A stretch of DNA of 57,309 bases from a virus. The DNA is taken from the IMG/VR virus record IMGVR_UViG_3300033183_000118, positions 1 to 57,309 of that record; one strand, 5' to 3'. Under the pieces are notes generated by a model. The model was not told the origin of the DNA. It did not search any database and was given only the letters and a program-made list of their open reading frames with translations. This document shows, piece by piece, positions 27,946 to 45,348 of this stretch. The translations under genes were made by a program, and so were the position numbers. Each line of letters starts with the position of its first letter. Within the stretch, counting starts at the first letter, position 1.

Positions 27946-28372
27946 GTGGGATCACCTTAATTTTCGGTTTGTCTAGCTTTCGAGTGAGAGCAAATTTCAG
28001 CTTCTCCTGCTCGCTTGTTGGAAGTTTAAGGAACTTCCGCTTGTCTACGGTCAACGACCGCTTGACGTGATCGGGCAATTCGCCTTGAGAGAATGCCTTC
28101 TCCAATGCTTCCTTGTCCCATGTCCACCGCTCAGAGCGGTTGACTACCACCTCGTAGCTGTCTGTAGACATCGCGCGTTCGCCTGCCTCTTCTGGAAAGA
28201 CATGCGCGATTTCTGTTTCGACTTGGGCTAAGAGAATGGTCAGAGCTTCTAGCTGATTAGACACCTCAAGGTGTTGCTTCGCTAAATCCTCCAGTGTTTT
28301 ACTTCGCTCGGAAGGTTTGGGGGTCTTCTTGCCTATGCTATCAAAGACATCCCATTCATCGCTTTCGATCAT
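27938..28372 (-). CDS. First gene of the recombination operon, coiled-coil protein of unknown function
   Basis: ATG 28372 is preceded by AGGAGG; an in-frame GTG at 28393 would place that ribosome site inside the gene, so the ATG is preferred. The 144-residue product has an acidic N-terminus, a coiled coil (about 25-65) and a C-terminal domain with YEVVVNRSERWTWDKEALEKAF. Similar small proteins precede Sak4-type ATPases in many phages, but the role is unknown. It is the promoter-proximal gene, driven from the operator region at 28411-28459. Confidence 0.72.
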   Translation of the reverse strand: MIESDEWDVFDSIGKKTPKPSERSKTLEDLAKQHLEVSNQLEALTILLAQVETEIAHVFPEEAGERAMSTDSYEVVVNRSERWTWDKEALEKAFSQGELPDHVKRSLTVDKRKFLKLPTSEQEKLKFALTRKLDKPKIKVIPHV

Positions 28373-28410: not shown

Positions 28411-28459
28411 GGTGTCTTGTCACACCCAAAGGTGTAGTATATATGATACAAGGTGTCAA
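28411..28459. promoter_or_regulatory. Divergent operator/promoter region between the repressor and the recombination operon
   Basis: Three elements are packed here. ACACC-CAAA-GGTGT (28422-28435) is a perfect inverted repeat. TGTAG-TATATATG-ATACA (28433-28450) matches the early operator TGTAK-N8-ATACA. On the - strand TTGACA (28459-28454) is a -35 box aimed at the recombination operon. A GGTGT...ACACC dyad also spans 28411-28426. Confidence 0.7.
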
Positions 28460-28477: not shown

Positions 28478-28705
28478 TTGTCTGCACGATTGAACATTGA
28501 AGCACTGATCTGTGATCTTGGGGGAGCAGCCGAAGTGGCCAAGATAGCAGGTGTGGTGCGCACTGCGCCCTATGGGTGGGTGAAACGGAACTACGTTTCC
28601 AGTTCAGTCTTGGAGAAAATCAAAACTGCCAAACCTGACATTGACTTAGACTTATACTTTCACGAGGTGGACGATGACCAAGACAAAACTGGAGGCCGCA
28701 CTTGA
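28478..28705 (+). CDS. Small Cro/repressor-like helix-turn-helix protein
   Basis: I chose TTG 28478, 8 bases after GGAG (28466-28469); longer in-frame extensions would cross the operators. The 75-residue product has the pattern LGGAAEVAKIAGVVRTAPYGWVKRNYVSSSVLEKI, a helix-turn-helix like YdaS/Cro-type phage regulators. It is divergent from the recombination operon and next to a dense operator cluster, so it probably controls the early promoters. The non-ATG start suggests low expression. It overlaps the primase-helicase start by 32 bases. Confidence 0.72.
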   Translation: MSARLNIEALICDLGGAAEVAKIAGVVRTAPYGWVKRNYVSSSVLEKIKTAKPDIDLDLYFHEVDDDQDKTGGRT

Positions 28706-30584
28706 GTATTTGGATCGCGGCTGGGCCGTTATCCCTATCAAGGGCGACAAGAGACCCGCAATAAAGTGGGCAGACTTCCAACAGAGGCACCCGACTGAAG
28801 AAGAAGTCGTAGACTGGTGGACCAAATGGCCAGACTACGACATCGCAGTCATCACAGGTGAAATAAGCGGGATCGTCGTAGTCGATTGTGACAACGAGGA
28901 AGCCGTGGACGCAGCCCAAGAAGCGGGTATGCAAAGTCCAATAAGGGTGAAGACCAAGCGCGGTCTTCACCTTTACTTTGAACACCCCAAGGATGGCATT
29001 CGTCGTGGCCCACGGGCAGGTGTGAATAGCCGAGGAGCAGACTGGCCAAAGATCAATGGCCTAGACTTCAGGGGCGATGGCAGCTACGCGCTGCTTCCCC
29101 CATCCAACAATTACGAGTGGACAATACCGCCATACATGGACTGGGATGAGATGCCCATGTGGCGTGACTGGCGTCCGACGCTGAAGGAAGACCGTCTTAC
29201 AGCAGACTTCACCTTCTCAAAGCTCGACCTGTCTTCGATTGACCCCCTTGATCCAGACGAGTTCATCAGCGAATGGGATCGCACCGCCAAGTATGTAGTC
29301 GAACACTTCCCATCGACCAAGAAAATACCAACTGGTGCGGGTAACGGACGCAACGAGCGTGTGATGCGTTACATCAGCGAGAGTATTCTGGAAGGTTTCT
29401 TTGGTCCAGAGCTACGCGTGCGTGGCTTCGCCTTTATGAATGAGTTCTTTGAGGAGAACCTAGACGAGCGAGAGTTCGAGGCGACAGTCCAATCCATGGA
29501 GCAAGCCGAGCGTCGGAACCATCCCGAACGCTTCGACGACAAGGGCCAGTACATATATAGCCGAGACCTGACACCAAAGAAGGAAGAAAACAAGAAGCGC
29601 AAGCTCATTCAGATGCGGGATGCGGAGCAACTTTTAGAGGAAGCAGACGCAAAAACCTATTTGATAGAACCGTGGCTTCCTGCTAATACAATCGTGCAGG
29701 TTTTCGGATATTCTGGGCATGGGAAATCCTTGTTCGTGCAGCACGCTGTAACGGCGTTGTGCGCAGGAAGGAAATACTTTGGACCGTTTGAGATCGGTCG
29801 ACCTGCACGAGTTCTCTACCTCGACTTTGAAATGGGCATGGCCACGATTGCCAGACGTCTGATGGAGATGCGCCAGATGCATGGTGACACCCAAGACCGC
29901 CTGAATATCTGGACACCATTCATCGAGGGACGGGAGATCGACTTGCAGACGCGAGAAGGTCTCCTCGATCTACAAGAATGGATCAAGTTTGCTGGCCCAG
30001 ACGTCGTCGTGATCGACACCATCCGCTCTGCATACCCAGGGATGGCGGAAAATTCGGCAGACGAATGGGCAAAAGTAAACAAGCTGGCGGTCACGTTGCG
30101 AAACTCTGGCCTTGCAGTCATCCTTATTCACCACAGCAACAAGCCATCCGAGAGTGGCGTCGGCAGGGAAGCTGGCTCAACGAACCAGTTGACCGTCTTG
30201 GAGACGCAGATCAGGGTGGCTCAAGTCTTCAGGGATGAGGAGACCGCAAAGCAAAACGCTGGCTTGTACGACGGCAACTATGACAACCCCGTCTGGCCTT
30301 TGCTGGAGAGCAAGCTGCCACCAGAGTATCGTCTGTATATGGTTATGGAAATTCGGTACGGGAAGGTGCGTGAATGGACTGACCTACATGACCGTGTGCA
30401 GTGGATTGGCTATGCGGCACACAATACAACAGACGAAAAGATCGTCGTGAGCAGCAAGTCTACCAAGCAGCGTGCAAAAGACATGGCCCTAGAGGGTCTG
30501 TCTGCACCTGCTATTTCTGATAAGCTGCATCGACCTCTACGGTTGGTCCGTGAGTGGCTCGAACTTCCAGATACTTCTTCCTAG
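28674..30584 (+). CDS. Primase-polymerase / RepA-type helicase fusion
   Basis: This 636-residue protein joins two replication domains. The N-terminal Prim-Pol domain (about 1-165) shows D71-x-D73 (VVVDCDN), H99 (GLHLYF) and LDFRGDGSYALLPPS near 130-144. The C-terminal RecA-like helicase (about 320-560) has Walker A GYSGHGKS (345-352), Walker B DVVVID (443-448) and LIHHSNK as the sensor-like strand. A helix-turn-helix-like tail ends the protein. It should prime and unwind the phage origin, with a host polymerase doing synthesis. Confidence 0.9.
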   Translation: MTKTKLEAALEYLDRGWAVIPIKGDKRPAIKWADFQQRHPTEEEVVDWWTKWPDYDIAVITGEISGIVVVDCDNEEAVDAAQEAGMQSPIRVKTKRGLHLYFEHPKDGIRRGPRAGVNSRGADWPKINGLDFRGDGSYALLPPSNNYEWTIPPYMDWDEMPMWRDWRPTLKEDRLTADFTFSKLDLSSIDPLDPDEFISEWDRTAKYVVEHFPSTKKIPTGAGNGRNERVMRYISESILEGFFGPELRVRGFAFMNEFFEENLDEREFEATVQSMEQAERRNHPERFDDKGQYIYSRDLTPKKEENKKRKLIQMRDAEQLLEEADAKTYLIEPWLPANTIVQVFGYSGHGKSLFVQHAVTALCAGRKYFGPFEIGRPARVLYLDFEMGMATIARRLMEMRQMHGDTQDRLNIWTPFIEGREIDLQTREGLLDLQEWIKFAGPDVVVIDTIRSAYPGMAENSADEWAKVNKLAVTLRNSGLAVILIHHSNKPSESGVGREAGSTNQLTVLETQIRVAQVFRDEETAKQNAGLYDGNYDNPVWPLLESKLPPEYRLYMVMEIRYGKVREWTDLHDRVQWIGYAAHNTTDEKIVVSSKSTKQRAKDMALEGLSAPAISDKLHRPLRLVREWLELPDTSS

Positions 30585-30768
30585 CTTTTATCTCTTCGGG
30601 CGTAAGGTGGCGCACAGACGTCACCTTCGCCTCTGGGAAGTGGTCTCGAACTCTATCAACTAACTCTGCAATCTCTGGATACTTGCGACGGTTTTCCTCG
30701 ACAAGTTTCTTCCGCATAAGCTCTTCGTAGCGTAGCTTATCTGCTGCAATTTCTTTCTTAGTTGCCAT
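30511..30768 (-). CDS. Small basic helical protein, antiparallel to the primase end
   Basis: This 85-residue protein (MATKKEIAADKLRYEELMRKK...) is charged and helical in its first 45 residues. Its last 25 codons overlap the 3' end of the primase-helicase gene on the other strand. A weak GAGAAA precedes the ATG. The start lies 12 bases from the 109-bp dyad at 30781, so that element may be its leader. Coding evidence is moderate; the pattern HLTPEEIKARKKYLEVRA looks protein-like. Confidence 0.55.
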   Translation of the reverse strand: MATKKEIAADKLRYEELMRKKLVEENRRKYPEIAELVDRVRDHFPEAKVTSVRHLTPEEIKARKKYLEVRATHGPTVEVDAAYQK

Positions 30769-30780
30769 ATTTTCTCAGAA

Positions 30781-30889
30781 TTAAAATCGTCTAGGCGTGT
30801 GACGTTGTCACCTCGACGTTGCTGTCGTTTAACGACCGAGGCAGGCACTTCCGTGCCTGTCTCGGCCTAACGTCTCGCGACGATTTTAA
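30781..30889 (+). ncRNA. 109-bp cloverleaf-like dyad: structured RNA or replication-origin candidate
   Basis: Outer stem: TTAAAATCGTC (30781-30791) with GACGATTTTAA (30879-30889). Second stem: TAGGC (30792-30796) with GCCTA (30865-30869). Inside are three hairpins: GTGAC/GTCAC (30799-30811), GTCGT/ACGAC (30824-30836) and a 12-bp stem at 30837-30864 with loop TTCC. The only non-Watson-Crick pair is G30841-T60 of that stem, a wobble in + strand RNA but a C-A mismatch on the other strand. Whether it acts as RNA or DNA cannot be told from sequence. Confidence 0.6.
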
Positions 30890-30909
30890 CTTTCTTGGTG
30901 GGAAAGTCA

Positions 30910-30958
30910 ACACCTTTGACACCTTTGGGTGTTGATTTTTAGTAGCGTTGCTTATACA
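30910..30958 (+). promoter_or_regulatory. Early promoter/operator for the 31.0-kb genes
   Basis: Direct repeats ACACCTTTG at 30910 and 30919 merge into the inverted repeat ACACC-TTTG-GGTGT (30919-30932), the same element as at 28422 in reverse. TTGATT (30932-30937) and TATACA (30953-30958) are plausible -35/-10 boxes, with a weak operator AGTAG-N8-ATACA (30941-30958) between. Confidence 0.6.
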
Positions 30959-30994: not shown

Positions 30995-31288
30995 ATGCCA
31001 AAGATGGTTCACGTCTCAGACGCGGACCTGAGTTGGCTCAAAGATAACCATCACGAATACTCTTACCAAGACATGGCCAAACGTATTGGATGCTGTGTCG
31101 ACACCCTGAAGAGAATACTTGTACGAGAAGGTCTTCAGGAATTTGACGGAGCCAAGTATCAGGTTCGCACAATCGACAAAACAAAAATATGGACACGTCC
31201 CTGCATGTCTTGCGGGGAGGAAGAAGAACGTCCTCGGTTCTGGTACTTCTGTCGTAGCTGTAGAAAAACAATGGGATACACCGAATGA
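30995..31288 (+). CDS. HTH plus zinc-ribbon small protein
   Basis: ATG 30995 is preceded by AAGGA; an in-frame GTG at 30977 is less likely. The 97-residue product has an N-terminal helix-turn-helix-like region (YSYQDMAKRIGCCVDTLKRILVREGL, about 20-45) and a C-terminal zinc ribbon with CMSC and CRSC knuckles. It is probably a DNA-binding regulator or a partner of the nuclease whose gene overlaps by 4 bases. Phage antirepressors and late regulators often have this size. Confidence 0.72.
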   Translation: MPKMVHVSDADLSWLKDNHHEYSYQDMAKRIGCCVDTLKRILVREGLQEFDGAKYQVRTIDKTKIWTRPCMSCGEEEERPRFWYFCRSCRKTMGYTE

Positions 31289-36068: not shown

Positions 36069-36143
<75 letters not shown>

Positions 36144-36173
36144 TTACTCCCTTCACGAAAATGCGTGTGTCAA

Positions 36174-37172
36174 TTATGTGCCACGCACACCTAGAAGACC
36201 TACGGTGTCCTCAAGGTGTGATGGCGCAAGGTGACTGTAACGCATGACCATTGACAGTGAACTGTGGCCAAGCAAGTCAGCCACCGCTCTTAGCGACGCG
36301 CCCCTCTGCACCAGTAACGATGCAAATGTGTGACGCATATCGTGCGGCCTAAAATCCTCAATGGCTGCACGTCTCGTGGCCCTGTAGAAATAATCGTAGA
36401 AATTATCTCTGTGCCACATACCCCCTGCGGGGTTCGGGAAGACCAAACCTGTACCTCTCTCCCCTATGGCTCTGGCAGCGTCGTCGACTAACGGCACGGC
36501 TCTGTACCGCGTCTTGCCCGACGTTCCCTTGCGCGTTCCGAAAGTCGCCCGACCATCCACGATGTCGGACCACTCCAGACGAAACGCCTCGCCAAGCCTC
36601 GCCCCTGTAAAGAACAGGAACGTGACCAATCTCTCAATCTCTGGCTCACATGCCTCGATGAGCGCATCCCGCTCATCTTCGTCGAGCCACCGTGTGCGGC
36701 TGTCGTCGACCTTCGGCTTCTTCAACCGCAAGTCTGGCACATCCAGTCCCATGTCTCGTGCATGGTTCAGCATGGCCATGATGCTGTTGATCTCCCGCTT
36801 TACGGTCGACGCTTTGTTCCCACGACTATTCACCCACAACATAACATCGGCAACAGTCAGCCTATCCAGACGCGTCTTGCCCACGGCACTATCAAAGCGC
36901 CCCAGTATCCCCACATCTGTCTCGCCAACCTTGTTTGGCCTGTCCAAGAACAGCCTAATCGCCTGTCCCACAGTCACACTAGACGTCGCGCCCTTCTCAA
37001 GACGCCCATCCAACGCATCCCTAAGTATCCGCCCCATGGCTTCTTGCGCATGTGGCTTCATACCCCGACCAAACCCAGTGCTTTTGCGGACGCGTAGTCG
37101 ATCACCAGTTGGCGTGACCACGGTCCCACTCACTTGCCAAACATCGTTACGCAATGTCAGTCGTAGTGTCAT
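36174..37172 (-). CDS. int: Tyrosine-family site-specific integrase
   Basis: ATG 37172 with AGAGGA upstream is chosen over longer in-frame starts that run into the regulator gene. The 332-residue protein has an N-terminal SAM-like DNA-binding part (about 62-150) and a catalytic domain with R192 (TGARLGEAF), K215 or K220, H277-x-x-R280 (HDMRHTFAS), H303 (LGHSS) and nucleophile Y312 (RYSHL). It would insert the genome at a host site, probably within a tRNA-Thr gene, given the adjacent tRNA. It overlaps the upstream regulator gene by 26 bases. Confidence 0.93.
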   Translation of the reverse strand: MTLRLTLRNDVWQVSGTVVTPTGDRLRVRKSTGFGRGMKPHAQEAMGRILRDALDGRLEKGATSSVTVGQAIRLFLDRPNKVGETDVGILGRFDSAVGKTRLDRLTVADVMLWVNSRGNKASTVKREINSIMAMLNHARDMGLDVPDLRLKKPKVDDSRTRWLDEDERDALIEACEPEIERLVTFLFFTGARLGEAFRLEWSDIVDGRATFGTRKGTSGKTRYRAVPLVDDAARAIGERGTGLVFPNPAGGMWHRDNFYDYFYRATRRAAIEDFRPHDMRHTFASLLVQRGASLRAVADLLGHSSLSMVMRYSHLAPSHLEDTVGLLGVRGT

Positions 37173-37605
37173 TCCTCTTCTCCGCATACAAACGAGCGAA
37201 CGGATCAGGCTCAACAAACTCGGCGTCCCAATCCTTGGGCAGCCCACCTGTCATCATCATGTATCCGTTGTCATCAATCTCGTCGAACTCCTTGTGCAGA
37301 CGATGGATAAGTTGTGCGCGTGAATTAACATTCAGTTTCCTGAACATCCCTCTCACATGCACCTTGGCCGTGTTGATGCTCACGCCCATCCTGTCTGCAA
37401 TTTCTTGGTTATCAGCCCCTCGCATCAGCATTTGCAATGCGACGTGCTGCTTCGTCGTGAACTTGTGCAGCACACTTTCCGTTGGGGTCGCCTTTGTTTC
37501 CGTTGGCGAGACTTCGCCGCCCGTAGTTGCGTCGTAGGCTTTCGCCATCAGCGCACCAAGTATTTGGTCGAGCTTCCACTCGATCCGATCCAGTTGAGTA
37601 GTCAT
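37147..37605 (-). CDS. LuxR-type helix-turn-helix regulator
   Basis: Start ATG 37605 is preferred because TAGG precedes it; GTG 37650 is possible. The 152-residue protein has a short N-terminal coiled region (TTQLDRIEWKLDQILG), a linker, and a GerE/LuxR HTH at about 48-105: FTTKQHVALQMLMRGADNQEIADRMGVSINTAKVHVRGMFRKLNVNSRAQL. There is no receiver or ligand domain, so it may act as a simple DNA-binding activator. It is coupled to integrase and could control lysogeny or activate phage promoters. Confidence 0.82.
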   Translation of the reverse strand: MTTQLDRIEWKLDQILGALMAKAYDATTGGEVSPTETKATPTESVLHKFTTKQHVALQMLMRGADNQEIADRMGVSINTAKVHVRGMFRKLNVNSRAQLIHRLHKEFDEIDDNGYMMMTGGLPKDWDAEFVEPDPFARLYAEKRNDTTTDIA

Positions 37606-41248: not shown

Positions 41249-43132
41249 CTATACCGCACGGTCAATTAGCTTGCTGTGGTCCAACTCGACACGCTCACCA
41301 AGAAGTATCTTGGAAAGCTGACCCATGACCTCACCCTCCAGATCGCTGATGCGATGGACCACGACGTGATTGGTGTAGAAGTGATTGACGGCGTCGCTCT
41401 GGATGCCAATGCCCACGATGTCAGTGCCACTGGCCTCGATGTCACTCACGACACGACGCAGGTGGTCACGCATCTTGACCATCGAACTCATGGCCGCAGG
41501 ATACCCATCGCTCAAGACCATCATCACCTTGCGCTTCTCGGGTCTGTCTTGCAGCCTGTCGAACGCAAGCTGCACAGCCTCGCCGTCTGTGTTGTCACCA
41601 ATGGCAAGGTCAACCATGCTTGCGATGCTGCCCTTGGCCTCGAACAGACGCTCGTTGAACTGCTTGAACACAGCCATGTTGAGCGGCTGCAAGCGACCCC
41701 ACTCGCGCTCCTCGTCCTTGCCGACGATTTCACTCACACGCTTGCGAAGCTCTGGGTGTATCTCGCCGTAGAAGTCATTCACGAAGCCAAGCATCTCGTA
41801 CTTGATACCAGTGCGATCAATGGCCTCGGCAATCGCAATGGCACACTGACGTGCAGTGTGGATCGGCGTGCCTGACATGCTGCCACTCAGGTCAATCAGC
41901 AAGCTGACCGCCGTGTCCATGTCGTGTCTGTCGGTGCGCGTCTTGAACACATTCTGGCGACCCGCAACCGCAGCAGTCAGACGCTTGGTGTCAAGACGCC
42001 CATGCTCTTTGGCCACATCCCAGTCACGCGTCTGCTTGGAAATCAGCGCACGCTCCAACTTGCGGCGCAGCATGTTGATGGTGCCGCTCATGCTCGCAAG
42101 CACCCTGTCGTACACATCGGCGTCGTACTTGCTCATAACGTAGTGGCCGAGATTGTAGCGTTGCTTGCGACCGTACTTGTTTGGCTCGTCATTGCGATGC
42201 CACCAACGGTCGAACTCTGTCGACAGCACACGATAGGTGCCACGACCACCACCCGCAAGCTCACGCTGTATGCTCTTGAGTGCTACTTCTGATCCGAAGT
42301 CGTCGTATACGTCATCCACAGCAGCGTCACCCTCGGCGGCGTCTCCGTCCCCGTCGCCATCATCAGGCTTGTCGCCTTCTGAAACATCGCTTCCCTCTGG
42401 CTTGTCGGTCCCGTCCATGTCTGGGTCATGTCCACGCCATTCTCCGTCGCCCATCTCGCCGTCAGCGTCCCCACCTTCTCCATCGCGCTCTCCTGTCTCG
42501 CTGTCACGCTCACTGCGGATGCGTGCTTCTAGCTCCTCGGCAAGGCTGAACACCTCGCCACTGTTCTTGCAGCCCAAGACGCGCTCGGCATACTCACGCG
42601 CCATGGCTGCGATGTCGTGGTCAATCATGTTGAGGCACTGCTCGTTCGTGTCGCCGCCGTAGCTCTCACGTCCTGCCCACGTCACACTCACTGGCCCCAC
42701 GAATACTGGGTCGCCAAGACGTGCGTCGTCCTCTGGCACACTGGCGATGAACTCACGATTGACAGCCTCAGACGTAGCACGCAGGTTGATCTCGGAACCT
42801 GGGTATTCCTCACGCACCTTGCTCTCCAACCACACGTCTTCGAGTGCGTTGGCACACGAGTGCAGCAACTTGTTGTCCTTCATCTTATCCGCATTGCGCT
42901 TCAGCACGCTGAAGTCTGTGTGGCGCACATGCCCTGCCTCATGGTCGACATACCCACGCATGATAGCTGCTTGCTCCTCGGTCACGTCTGCGTTCAGGTC
43001 AATCGCAGGTAGCTTGACCGTGGTGCCGTTCGTGGCTGCGCCGTCACCGTCAAACACAACCTCGATGTTTTTCTTGCGGCCAAACACGCTCGATGTCTTG
43101 GCTAGTTCGTTTGTGAAAATGTTCGCTTTCAT
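41249..43132 (-). CDS. CobT-like VWA-domain protein with an HEAGH motif
   Basis: ATG 43132 has AAGGAG 8 bases upstream. The 627-residue protein has an N-terminal domain with HEAGHVRHTDF (H64-H68), a zincin-like site. A very acidic Asp/Gly/Glu linker lies at about 205-275. The C-terminal von Willebrand A domain has MIDAS D414-L-S416-G-S418 and a downstream SDGYP. CobT-type VWA proteins work with a MoxR/CobS ATPase, encoded just upstream in the same operon. Phage versions are often labelled cobaltochelatase, but no other cobalamin gene is here. Confidence 0.85.
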   Translation of the reverse strand: MKANIFTNELAKTSSVFGRKKNIEVVFDGDGAATNGTTVKLPAIDLNADVTEEQAAIMRGYVDHEAGHVRHTDFSVLKRNADKMKDNKLLHSCANALEDVWLESKVREEYPGSEINLRATSEAVNREFIASVPEDDARLGDPVFVGPVSVTWAGRESYGGDTNEQCLNMIDHDIAAMAREYAERVLGCKNSGEVFSLAEELEARIRSERDSETGERDGEGGDADGEMGDGEWRGHDPDMDGTDKPEGSDVSEGDKPDDGDGDGDAAEGDAAVDDVYDDFGSEVALKSIQRELAGGGRGTYRVLSTEFDRWWHRNDEPNKYGRKQRYNLGHYVMSKYDADVYDRVLASMSGTINMLRRKLERALISKQTRDWDVAKEHGRLDTKRLTAAVAGRQNVFKTRTDRHDMDTAVSLLIDLSGSMSGTPIHTARQCAIAIAEAIDRTGIKYEMLGFVNDFYGEIHPELRKRVSEIVGKDEEREWGRLQPLNMAVFKQFNERLFEAKGSIASMVDLAIGDNTDGEAVQLAFDRLQDRPEKRKVMMVLSDGYPAAMSSMVKMRDHLRRVVSDIEASGTDIVGIGIQSDAVNHFYTNHVVVHRISDLEGEVMGQLSKILLGERVELDHSKLIDRAV

Positions 43133-43144
43133 GTTCGTCACTCC

Positions 43145-44941
43145 TTACGAAAACACACGCTTGGCCAAGCCGTTCAGCACCGCACGGTCCTGCACACTGG
43201 CTCGGTCGAGGACAGTTGCCTCAAGCGCCTGATTGGTTGCGTCTGACATGCCCATCTGCGTGAACATCTCCGTCGCCTTGGCGAAAGCGAGGAAGGTGCG
43301 TGGACTGATTGGCTGCAAGACTTTGGCTGTCGTGAACGCCTCAAGGTGTTCGCCGACGTACTGGTTGACACGCTTGAGCAAGTCACCACCAAGCGTTGGC
43401 GCATTGGCTGCGATCAGCTTCTCGCGATCCGAGGCACTCATGTACTCAACCTTGACCCACACGGTGAAGCGGTCGAGCAATGCCATCGACTGCGGTCTGG
43501 CACCCTGATACATGCCATGCTCATCACCCTGACCCACAGTGTTGCCTGTCGCAAACATGCGGAACATCTTGTGTGGCTTCACAATGCGACCGCCATCCTC
43601 GGTGAGCATGAGGCCGTTGCCCTCGAACGCACGCTGCATGACGTAGGCAACATCTGGTCTGACGAAGTCGATCTCGTCGAAGATGCCGATGTATGGCCCC
43701 GACATCATCTGCGGCAGAATACCGTCCACGAACGTCGACGTGGTGGCACCGTCCTCAGACGACAAGACGTCACGACCGATGAGGTCCATGCGTGTGATCT
43801 CGCTGTCGAAGTTGACGCGCATGACTGGCCAGTTCAGCACGGCAGCAACCTGCTCCACGAGCGTGGTCTTGCCTGTGCCTGTGTGACCGTGCAGATACGC
43901 ACGTTGGTTGGTGATGACCGCATACAAGACGCGGAACAACTCGAACGGACGGAAGATGTAGTTGGGGTCACGCGCTGGCACATGCGGATGCGGTGCATCC
44001 CACTGCCACACTGGCACGTCGAAGTTCAGCGTGGCCTTGGCACCCGAAGACGTCAGGCCGAACACCTCATACGCTTTGGCCGTCGTGACCTTGCCTGTTG
44101 GCATCTTGCCGTCTGGCGTGACCTCGACCTCGGTCGGCACACTTGGCATGACCGCAGCCTTGGCCGCAGCCGATGCGGCTGCAAGGTCGCTCGTGAGCTT
44201 GTCGATCTGGTCGAGCATGGTGTTGATGCTCGGAAGCGATGCGGCAGACAGCATGGCGTCGATCATCTTGGCCTCGCCTGCGTCTGGTCGCTTGGACTTG
44301 GCCTCTGGCGTTGGTGTCGGCTCCGCCTCTGGCTCATCAAGGATGCGCTTGGCGATACCTCTGGCACTGGCCGCATGCTCGCTCGACAGATACGGTGGCT
44401 CGGTCGGTGTCTCGTCACGAATGCGAATGGCGTCGAGTGCGGCTTCGAGCTTGCCGAGCTTCACGTCTGTGTGTATACGCATGGCCTCCTTGATGATCGT
44501 CAGCGGTGCCTTCGTGTGGAACGTGACGTGGTCGATGATGTCGATGAGTTCGGATAGGTTCATGTCGGTATCTCTCTCCAGTTTGCTCGCTTCTTCGATG
44601 ATCGCGGCGCATGACGCCTCGTTGAAGTGGTCGGGACGACCGATGTCGTACCCGTGCTTCGTACCGTGGCTCTCGATGCCTCGGTTCTCAGGGTCGATGA
44701 GCGCGTCGCAGACGTCGTGGACGGTCACTGCGCCTGAGACGAGGCCGATCAGTGTCTGCATGCTCATGTTGTCGCGAAGCGCGGCATACGACGGTTTGAG
44801 GTCGAATGGCCCGCGAGCTATCGCGTCTTTGACCTTGCTCTCGTAGAGCTTGAGGTCGGCTGACACTGCATTGCGCATGAGCTTGCGCCGTTCGGCGAAC
44901 GGCTTGCTCATCGTGTCTTGGATGAACTTGAGGTTCTTCAT
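43145..44941 (-). CDS. CobS-like MoxR-family AAA+ ATPase
   Basis: ATG 44941 follows GGAGGAG. The 598-residue protein has a long N-terminal helical part (about 1-300, with a Pro/Glu/Ala linker) and a C-terminal AAA+ domain. The latter has Walker A GHTGTGKTT (from 352), Walker B IGIFDEID, sensor-1 FATGN, and ALLDRF near an arginine finger. This matches CobS/MoxR. It pairs with the CobT-like VWA protein 12 bases downstream, so the two probably form a chaperone or chelatase-type machine acting on a host or phage target. The N-terminal extension is not found in ordinary CobS. Confidence 0.86.
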   Translation of the reverse strand: MKNLKFIQDTMSKPFAERRKLMRNAVSADLKLYESKVKDAIARGPFDLKPSYAALRDNMSMQTLIGLVSGAVTVHDVCDALIDPENRGIESHGTKHGYDIGRPDHFNEASCAAIIEEASKLERDTDMNLSELIDIIDHVTFHTKAPLTIIKEAMRIHTDVKLGKLEAALDAIRIRDETPTEPPYLSSEHAASARGIAKRILDEPEAEPTPTPEAKSKRPDAGEAKMIDAMLSAASLPSINTMLDQIDKLTSDLAAASAAAKAAVMPSVPTEVEVTPDGKMPTGKVTTAKAYEVFGLTSSGAKATLNFDVPVWQWDAPHPHVPARDPNYIFRPFELFRVLYAVITNQRAYLHGHTGTGKTTLVEQVAAVLNWPVMRVNFDSEITRMDLIGRDVLSSEDGATTSTFVDGILPQMMSGPYIGIFDEIDFVRPDVAYVMQRAFEGNGLMLTEDGGRIVKPHKMFRMFATGNTVGQGDEHGMYQGARPQSMALLDRFTVWVKVEYMSASDREKLIAANAPTLGGDLLKRVNQYVGEHLEAFTTAKVLQPISPRTFLAFAKATEMFTQMGMSDATNQALEATVLDRASVQDRAVLNGLAKRVFS

Positions 44942-45348
44942 CACGTCTCCTCCGTGATTTGGGTTGGATTGAAATTCGAGGCATTCTGCCCCACCTGATA
45001 ACCCCTTTTAGGGGGAAGCGCGTGCCGCGCGAGGACACCTTCCGACACCTCACATGTATAACGTGCTATACAGGGTGTCAAGGGTGTCTCTTTCGTGAGT
45101 GTGACGGTGTCGCCGACGCTTGCGATGCGTTTGACGTCTTTGATCGACACTCTGCGGTCGCCTCTGGCCGTGACGTAGAAGCGAACCTTGGTGGCAACGC
45201 CGTTGACGTAAGCGTTGACCTCGACCTTCTCGCGAAGGCTTGCGTAGTCGATGCCGTAGGCGTCGAGCGCCCAAGACCTCACCGACGCGTTGGCGTCGAT
45301 GATGTGCTTGTCGAGCATCGTGCGAGTGAGTTTGATCGTCGCGCTCAT
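44941..45348 (-). CDS. Small protein upstream of the CobS-like gene, with regulatory DNA in its 3' part
   Basis: ATG 45348 overlaps the upstream gene, and the TGA overlaps the CobS-like ATG. The 135-residue product has a convincing first 85 residues (MSATIKLTRTMLDKHIIDANASVRSWALDAYGID..., VRFYVTARGDRRVSIKDVKRIASVGDTVTL). The remaining 50 residues look less protein-like. Their DNA holds an operator, a TTGACA box and four GGTGT/ACACC half-sites. The gene may be real with a promoter embedded, or an older stop may have been lost. Confidence 0.6.
   Translation of the reverse strand: MSATIKLTRTMLDKHIIDANASVRSWALDAYGIDYASLREKVEVNAYVNGVATKVRFYVTARGDRRVSIKDVKRIASVGDTVTLTKETPLTPCIARYTCEVSEGVLARHALPPKRGYQVGQNASNFNPTQITEET
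45035..45087 (-). promoter_or_regulatory. Early promoter/operator driving the CobS/CobT-like pair
   Basis: On the - strand TTGACA (45081-45076) precedes TATACA (45060-45055) by 15 bases. The perfect operator TGTAT-N8-ATACA (45055-45072) fills this gap. ACACC at 45035 and 45045 and GGTGT at 45074 and 45083 flank it symmetrically. Confidence 0.68.

Follow-up and report, generated by a model that had tools for sequence, protein, structure and literature searches.

In the Frpo/ssi single-stranded DNA promoters of conjugative plasmids, both the -35 and the -10 have complementary regions in the fold, in the structures described in PMC11541004 (citing Masai and Arai, 1997). The virion RNA polymerase of phage N4 uses as promoters DNA hairpins of 5-7 bp that have their centre at -11, and the C(GNA)G loops of these hairpins are required for their extrusion from DNA (PMC4496689). 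Furthermore, some Streptococcus phages, Sfi21 among them, are known to carry noncoding origins within the replication module (PMC6356513).

Here we describe a folded element that adjoins a phage primase-helicase gene. The DNA analysed, hereafter the window, is the whole of a 57.3-kb IMG/VR virus record (57,309 nt) that has its relatives among the CRP-810-group Roseobacter phages. Among 50,697 phages, the only similar record is that of Roseobacter phage CRP-810 itself (71% DNA identity over the region), whose primase is 76% identical to that of the window. The title of PMC11288001 presents the CRP-810-type phages as a marine phage family that is diverse and distributed globally; that paper nowhere uses the terms origin of replication, intergenic, noncoding or promoter.

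A Conserved Folded Element Beside the Primase Gene

The folded element at positions 30781-30889 is real and conserved (Table 1). On the plus strand, its 109 nt fold with an energy of -55.5 kcal/mol, against -29.3 +/- 3.4 kcal/mol for shuffled sequences (z = -7.8), and on the minus strand with -51.9 kcal/mol (z = -7.7); 0 of 200 shuffles match the fold energy of the element. The perfect 11-bp outer stem and the hairpins that an earlier note on this DNA had recognized are present, and its denial of tRNA identity agrees with a tRNA search that gives no match at the element. The 5-bp inner stem TAGGC/GCCTA, also proposed there, is possible as a pairing, but G30865 is shared with the long hairpin and the energy model picks otherwise. 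An Rfam search of the element yielded no family at the gathering threshold and only weak matches below it. The window record has the element once, and neither the window nor the initial 50 kb of CRP-810 yielded an extra copy, that is, one copy per genome where tested.

Table 1. Features of the element and its surroundings in the window.
Feature	Position	Strand	Basis or remark
Left arm of closing stem P1, TTAAAATCGTC	30781-30791	+	Perfect inverted repeat; inverted copy of the leftward-promoter -10 region
Right arm of P1	30879-30889	-	Perfect inverted repeat; holds the leftward-promoter -10 region on the minus strand
5' half of possible inner stem, TAGGC (with 30865-30869)	30792-30796		Sequence; not the energy model's choice
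Small hairpin P4, GTGAC-GTT-GTCAC	30799-30811		Sequence; folds
Third hairpin, GTCG-TTTAA-CGAC	30824-30836		Sequence, folds; not general among relatives
Long hairpin P3	30836-30865		7 bp from the 4-nt loop, interruption G30841/T30860, then 5 bp
Predicted transcription start	30876	-	7 nt past the -10 hexamer; inferred from the usual sigma-70 layout
-10 hexamer TAAAAT	30883-30888	-	Register conserved in 34/35 families
-35 hexamer TTGACT	30905-30910	-	Spacer 16 in the window
Probable operator, palindrome GACACCTTTGGGTGTT, upstream of the -35	30918-30933		0 mismatches
Small ORF, 85 aa	30511-30768	-	First in the leftward transcript
Primase-polymerase/AAA_25 helicase gene	28674-30584	+	Adjoins the element

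Scans of IMG/VR with three primase queries produced 136 loci having DNA downstream of the primase gene; after removal of duplicates and unrelated stems, 65 different elements remained, which fall into 35 sequence families of CRP-810-type phages with primase identities of about 64-99%. In nearly every locus with enough downstream DNA, a perfect inverted repeat closes an element of 86-128 nt, located about 100-760 nt past the primase stop. The closing stem, perfectly paired over 8-15 bp, is kept in all 35 families, at an arm-to-arm distance of 74-116 nt that shows no helical phasing. The arms themselves vary widely in sequence (TTAAAATCGTC in the window, and TGATACAACGAC, TGGTATAACGTC, CGATACACTCGC, TGATAAAACTAC, CGGTACAACGC and others elsewhere), and are always matched within a genome; the TGATACAACG-armed form was found in IMG/VR only beside this primase. 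No element lies beside the primase at loci L113 and L120, and none was found in the 2 kb downstream of the primase of a Poseidonocella prophage (L171; primase 53% identical).

Compensatory changes in homologous loci, the test named in the earlier note, were found, with the two arms of the outer stem changing together. When related elements were compared, 41 two-sided compensatory changes were counted in the outer stem, as against 5 changes to G-T or A-C and 21 others; the corresponding counts for the interior (99 two-sided, 53 G-T, 72 A-C and 241 other) are partly alignment noise. An invertible segment was also considered and is not supported, as motifs shared inside the element point the same way with respect to the flanks in all the families that were compared.

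A Leftward Sigma-70 Promoter Overlapping the Right Arm

A promoter escaped the earlier note: in 34 of the 35 families, the right arm is a sigma-70 -10 region on the minus strand. The consensus across families is TTGAC, 17 bp, TAnAAY, and among the families that combine a TTGAC-like box with a TAnnnn box, the spacer is 17 in 31 and 16 in 3, the window included. The promoter of the window, TTGACT-N16-TAAAAT, reads leftward through the element to the small ORF. Because a match in one sequence alone is not significant (1 found, 1.1 expected), the assignment is made from conservation in register across families. The most distant family (L084) lies outside this register, and no matching -35 was found outside the left arm. 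The -10 box frequently ends in C or A, and the absence of T from -7 is usual for Alphaproteobacteria (PMC8407463).

The Left Arm as an Exact Copy of the -10 Region

Throughout the range -12 to -5, the left arm matches the promoter base in 34 of 34 families. The copying encompasses positions that vary freely, such as -10 (C in 19 families, A in 10, T in 4, G in 1) and -7 (C in 14, A in 10, T in 10), as well as -6 and -5, at each of which all four bases occur and are still copied in every family; random dealing at the variable positions gives 11-14 matches compared with the observed 34. The copy extends to positions -15 to -13 in 29-32 of the 34 families and to -4 in 23, whereas outside the range from -15 to -4 it is at or near chance (4/34 at -16). 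The part of the promoter spanned by the closing stem is the part read by sigma, and the stem ends short of the predicted start site. Since the P1 bases lie upstream of that site, the closing stem cannot form within RNA from this promoter, unless there is a transcript that starts further upstream, in which case an RNA helix of P1 would be possible. In one group of families (L071/L075/L080), the left arm is inside the small ORF, and the codons change so that pairing with the -10 is kept. We tentatively view the element as a folding DNA module built around the sigma-70 -10 box in CRP-810-type phages.

Interior Hairpins and the Strand Question

The long hairpin has a uniform architecture in most of the 35 families, namely 6-7 Watson-Crick pairs from a loop of 3-4 nt, one mismatch or bulge, and 4-6 further pairs, despite sequences that are unrelated between families. 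G30841/T30860, which the earlier note took for the single non-Watson-Crick pair of the element and for a wobble that tells the strand, coincides with the position, 6-7 bp away from the loop, where almost all relatives have an interruption (A-G, T-T, C-T, G-T or a 1-nt bulge) and so loses that meaning; in the rest of the long-hairpin core, A-C pairs are missing and G-T occurs once at most. A small hairpin at the place of P4 is frequent in relatives.

On the minus strand, the triloops are GNA in 10 of the 17 triloop families (P = 2e-7), as opposed to 1 of 17 on the plus strand, and these 10 families carry the C(GNA)G loop of N4-type promoters; the loop of the window hairpin is a tetraloop, GGAA on the minus strand. 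The near-absence of G-U-type pairs from the closing stem and the long hairpin, together with the C(GNA)G minus-strand loops, favours folded DNA. Thus, we read these patterns as folding at the DNA level, probably of the minus strand, with RNA folding possible too. Fold energy was tried as a guide to the strand and was rejected, as the apparent preference for the minus strand in 32 of 35 families is mostly explained by base composition; apparent UNCG tetraloops on the plus strand proved to be the triloops in another register.

Neighboring Genes and an Operator-Like Palindrome

The small ORF matches no Pfam or PHROG family, and a core of its product, RENRRKYPEIAxFVDEVRKxFPxAKV, is kept in most families. 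At L113 (5369-6301) and L120 (3576-4139), the small ORF is preceded by a ribosome site, AGGAGG, and a folded element was not found next to it, in contrast to the ORFs that adjoin an element, most of which have no clear ribosome site.

The palindrome upstream of the -35 is probably the operator of a phage regulator. The ACACC/GGTGT motif to the right of the element is enriched about 9-fold over the distant flank, and palindromes near RACACCTWWRGGTGTY have 9 matches in the window (both strands) where 0.29 are expected; the copies at 28260-28275, 28421-28436 and 30918-30933 lie in or near two early divergent promoter regions. An intrinsic terminator on the plus strand (30916-30935) was considered for the same site, but relatives mostly keep the palindrome without a T run, and hence it is read as an operator. 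The first gene of the divergent rightward operon (30995-31288, plus strand) encodes a small protein without a Pfam family, with a possible helix-turn-helix and CxxC pairs. Its start, MPK-V-V-D-DL-WL, seems to be kept by almost every relative, and this product could be the operator-binding protein.

Elsewhere in the window, the sole tRNA found, a tRNA-Thr (36069-36143), lies beside a tyrosine integrase gene (the pair occupying 36069-37247), an adjacency that suggests integration of the phage at a host tRNA-Thr. The adjoining genes at 41249-44944 (minus strand) resemble CobT and CobS, as they are named in CRP-810.

Discussion

Tentatively, we favour the interpretation of the element as a promoter-embedded single-strand initiation element that would work like Frpo/ssi sites without being filed among them. 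The region would become single-stranded on a replication or transcription intermediate, and the strand would fold. Pairing of the arms would then rebuild a duplex -10 region within one strand, on which host RNA polymerase could start RNA that serves as a primer for phage DNA synthesis and/or as an early transcript. In double-stranded DNA, the leftward mRNA would come from the same -10, acting with the -35 as a conventional regulated promoter. The site would, then, behave as an ssi/Frpo-type element beside the phage's own primase-helicase gene. The coupling to the single-stranded form, with the -10 duplex rebuilt for RNA polymerase, is the part that we infer, and we advance it as a possibility short of probable.

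Several lines of evidence point to single-strand initiation: the fixed register between promoter and right arm (34 of 35 families, 31 of them with a spacer of 17); the exact copy of -12 to -5 with sharp ends at -15 and around -4; the excess of 41 two-sided over 5 one-sided changes in the outer stem, with few wobble-type pairs in the stem and the long hairpin; the GNA triloops of the minus strand and the unphased spacing of the arms; the codons that follow the -10 in the L071/L075/L080 group; and the adjacency to the primase-helicase gene in a single copy per genome where tested. Against it stand the position of the -35 outside the stem, which would oblige RNA polymerase to use the -10 alone on single-stranded DNA, and an inner fold that could equally be RNA, given that energy does not tell the strand. 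Moreover, GC skew gives no origin signal, the single-strandedness of the region is hypothetical, the element is absent beside the primase in L113, L120 and L171, and L084 is off register.

The main rival, which we consider somewhat less likely, is a structured 5' leader RNA: the first ~100 nt of the leftward mRNA would fold into the long and the small hairpin, and this fold would stabilize the small-ORF mRNA or regulate it. The left arm, which lies directly before the start codon, could in addition give feedback by pairing with the non-template -10 of its own promoter when that is melted. The promoter indeed reads into the element toward a conserved ORF, which usually starts 2-24 nt past the left arm and often has no clear ribosome site. 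On the minus strand, the fold of the interior is also more stable than that of shuffled versions (mean z about -4), with compensatory changes, and the lower-helix mismatches of three families are A-C on the plus strand, equivalent to G-U on the minus strand (7 vs 0). However, the closing stem is formed from untranscribed bases, such that only the inner hairpins lie within the predicted transcript; the long hairpin is nearly without wobble pairs; four loci (L021, L022, L065 and L066) keep the element although the usual small ORF is not the next one; and the left arm of one group is part of the ORF. The earlier note's suggestion of a leader for 30511-30768 is therefore half right: because the promoter overlaps the right arm and the outer stem includes the untranscribed -10, the inner part would be the start of a leader under the leftward promoter, whereas the complete cloverleaf cannot be leader RNA. 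For a free small RNA, another of its options, the analysis of the element yielded nothing specific.

A replication origin, likewise among the earlier options, is possible. One specific version, an R-loop-type origin, seems improbable to us: RNA would stay on the plus strand, the displaced minus strand would fold, and the closing stem would clamp it open, so that this RNA would prime replication, with the primase-helicase loading on the displaced strand. The GNA loops on the non-template (minus) strand, a stem whose start coincides with the upstream border of the promoter bubble, the replication gene next door, and the noncoding origins of Streptococcus phages such as Sfi21 (PMC6356513), which have distant primase relatives, are compatible with such an origin. 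The sharp limits at -15 and about -4, in contrast, are unnecessary for a clamp, and GC skew, which is uninformative here, has no origin signal.

It is very improbable that the arms are two operators of one DNA-looping phage repressor, differing in sequence since the repressors differ; their location on the promoter and their fast divergence between phages suit this idea, but their distance (74-116) is not phased with the helix, the copies are exact at all of -12 to -5 and always inverted, and the interior is structured in its own right. Equally remote is the maintenance of identical arms by a mutational process (template switching or quasipalindrome correction) instead of selection for pairing, for although such correction perfects nearby inverted repeats, the matched span keeps a fixed promoter register in 34 families and the long hairpin retains an imperfect position that correction should erase.

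Returning to the single-strand initiation element, we propose, with more reserve than for the element itself, that it could represent a new dual-form promoter/initiation class in double-stranded DNA phages, in which the -10 is duplicated in inverted form ~100 nt downstream, and folded single-stranded DNA would recreate the -10 duplex, from which host RNA polymerase would prime or switch replication. A conserved fold whose stem follows a sigma-70 -10 box at every base would show that RNA polymerase recognition elements are used again as structural stems in the genomes of such phages. The start of replication in phages with a primase-polymerase would become directly testable in cultured CRP-810, and the comparison supplies 34 natural compensatory variants.

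Comparison with Known Systems

Structured 5' leaders of bacterial and phage mRNAs have a conserved fold between promoter and start codon, as does this locus, where, in contrast, the closing stem is untranscribed promoter DNA. In Streptococcus thermophilus phages such as Sfi21, a noncoding origin lies beside the primase gene (PMC6356513), and the present element is similarly noncoding and part of the replication module; the likeness is one of location and of primase kinship, the Streptococcus phage primases being distant relatives (27% identity over part of the protein). The N4 promoters resemble the element in their C(GNA)G-looped DNA hairpins, comparable to the minus-strand loops here (PMC4496689), and differ from it in that they are used by the phage virion polymerase whereas the promoter here belongs to the sigma-70 type of the host; the window proteins scanned, a 3217-aa protein included, showed no RNA polymerase family.

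The Frpo/ssi promoters, as described in PMC11541004, share with the element a sigma-70 -10 in a stem formed by a single strand and a place beside genes used early in DNA takeover, here the primase-helicase gene. Unlike in Frpo, only the range from -15 to -4 is duplicated here and the -35 is unpaired; because a paired -35 was looked for and not found, we do not file the element as a member of Frpo/ssi. Furthermore, the Frpo hosts are conjugative plasmids, whereas the present element belongs to a double-stranded DNA phage. The element suggests a so far undescribed mode of initiating transcription or DNA replication on folded DNA.
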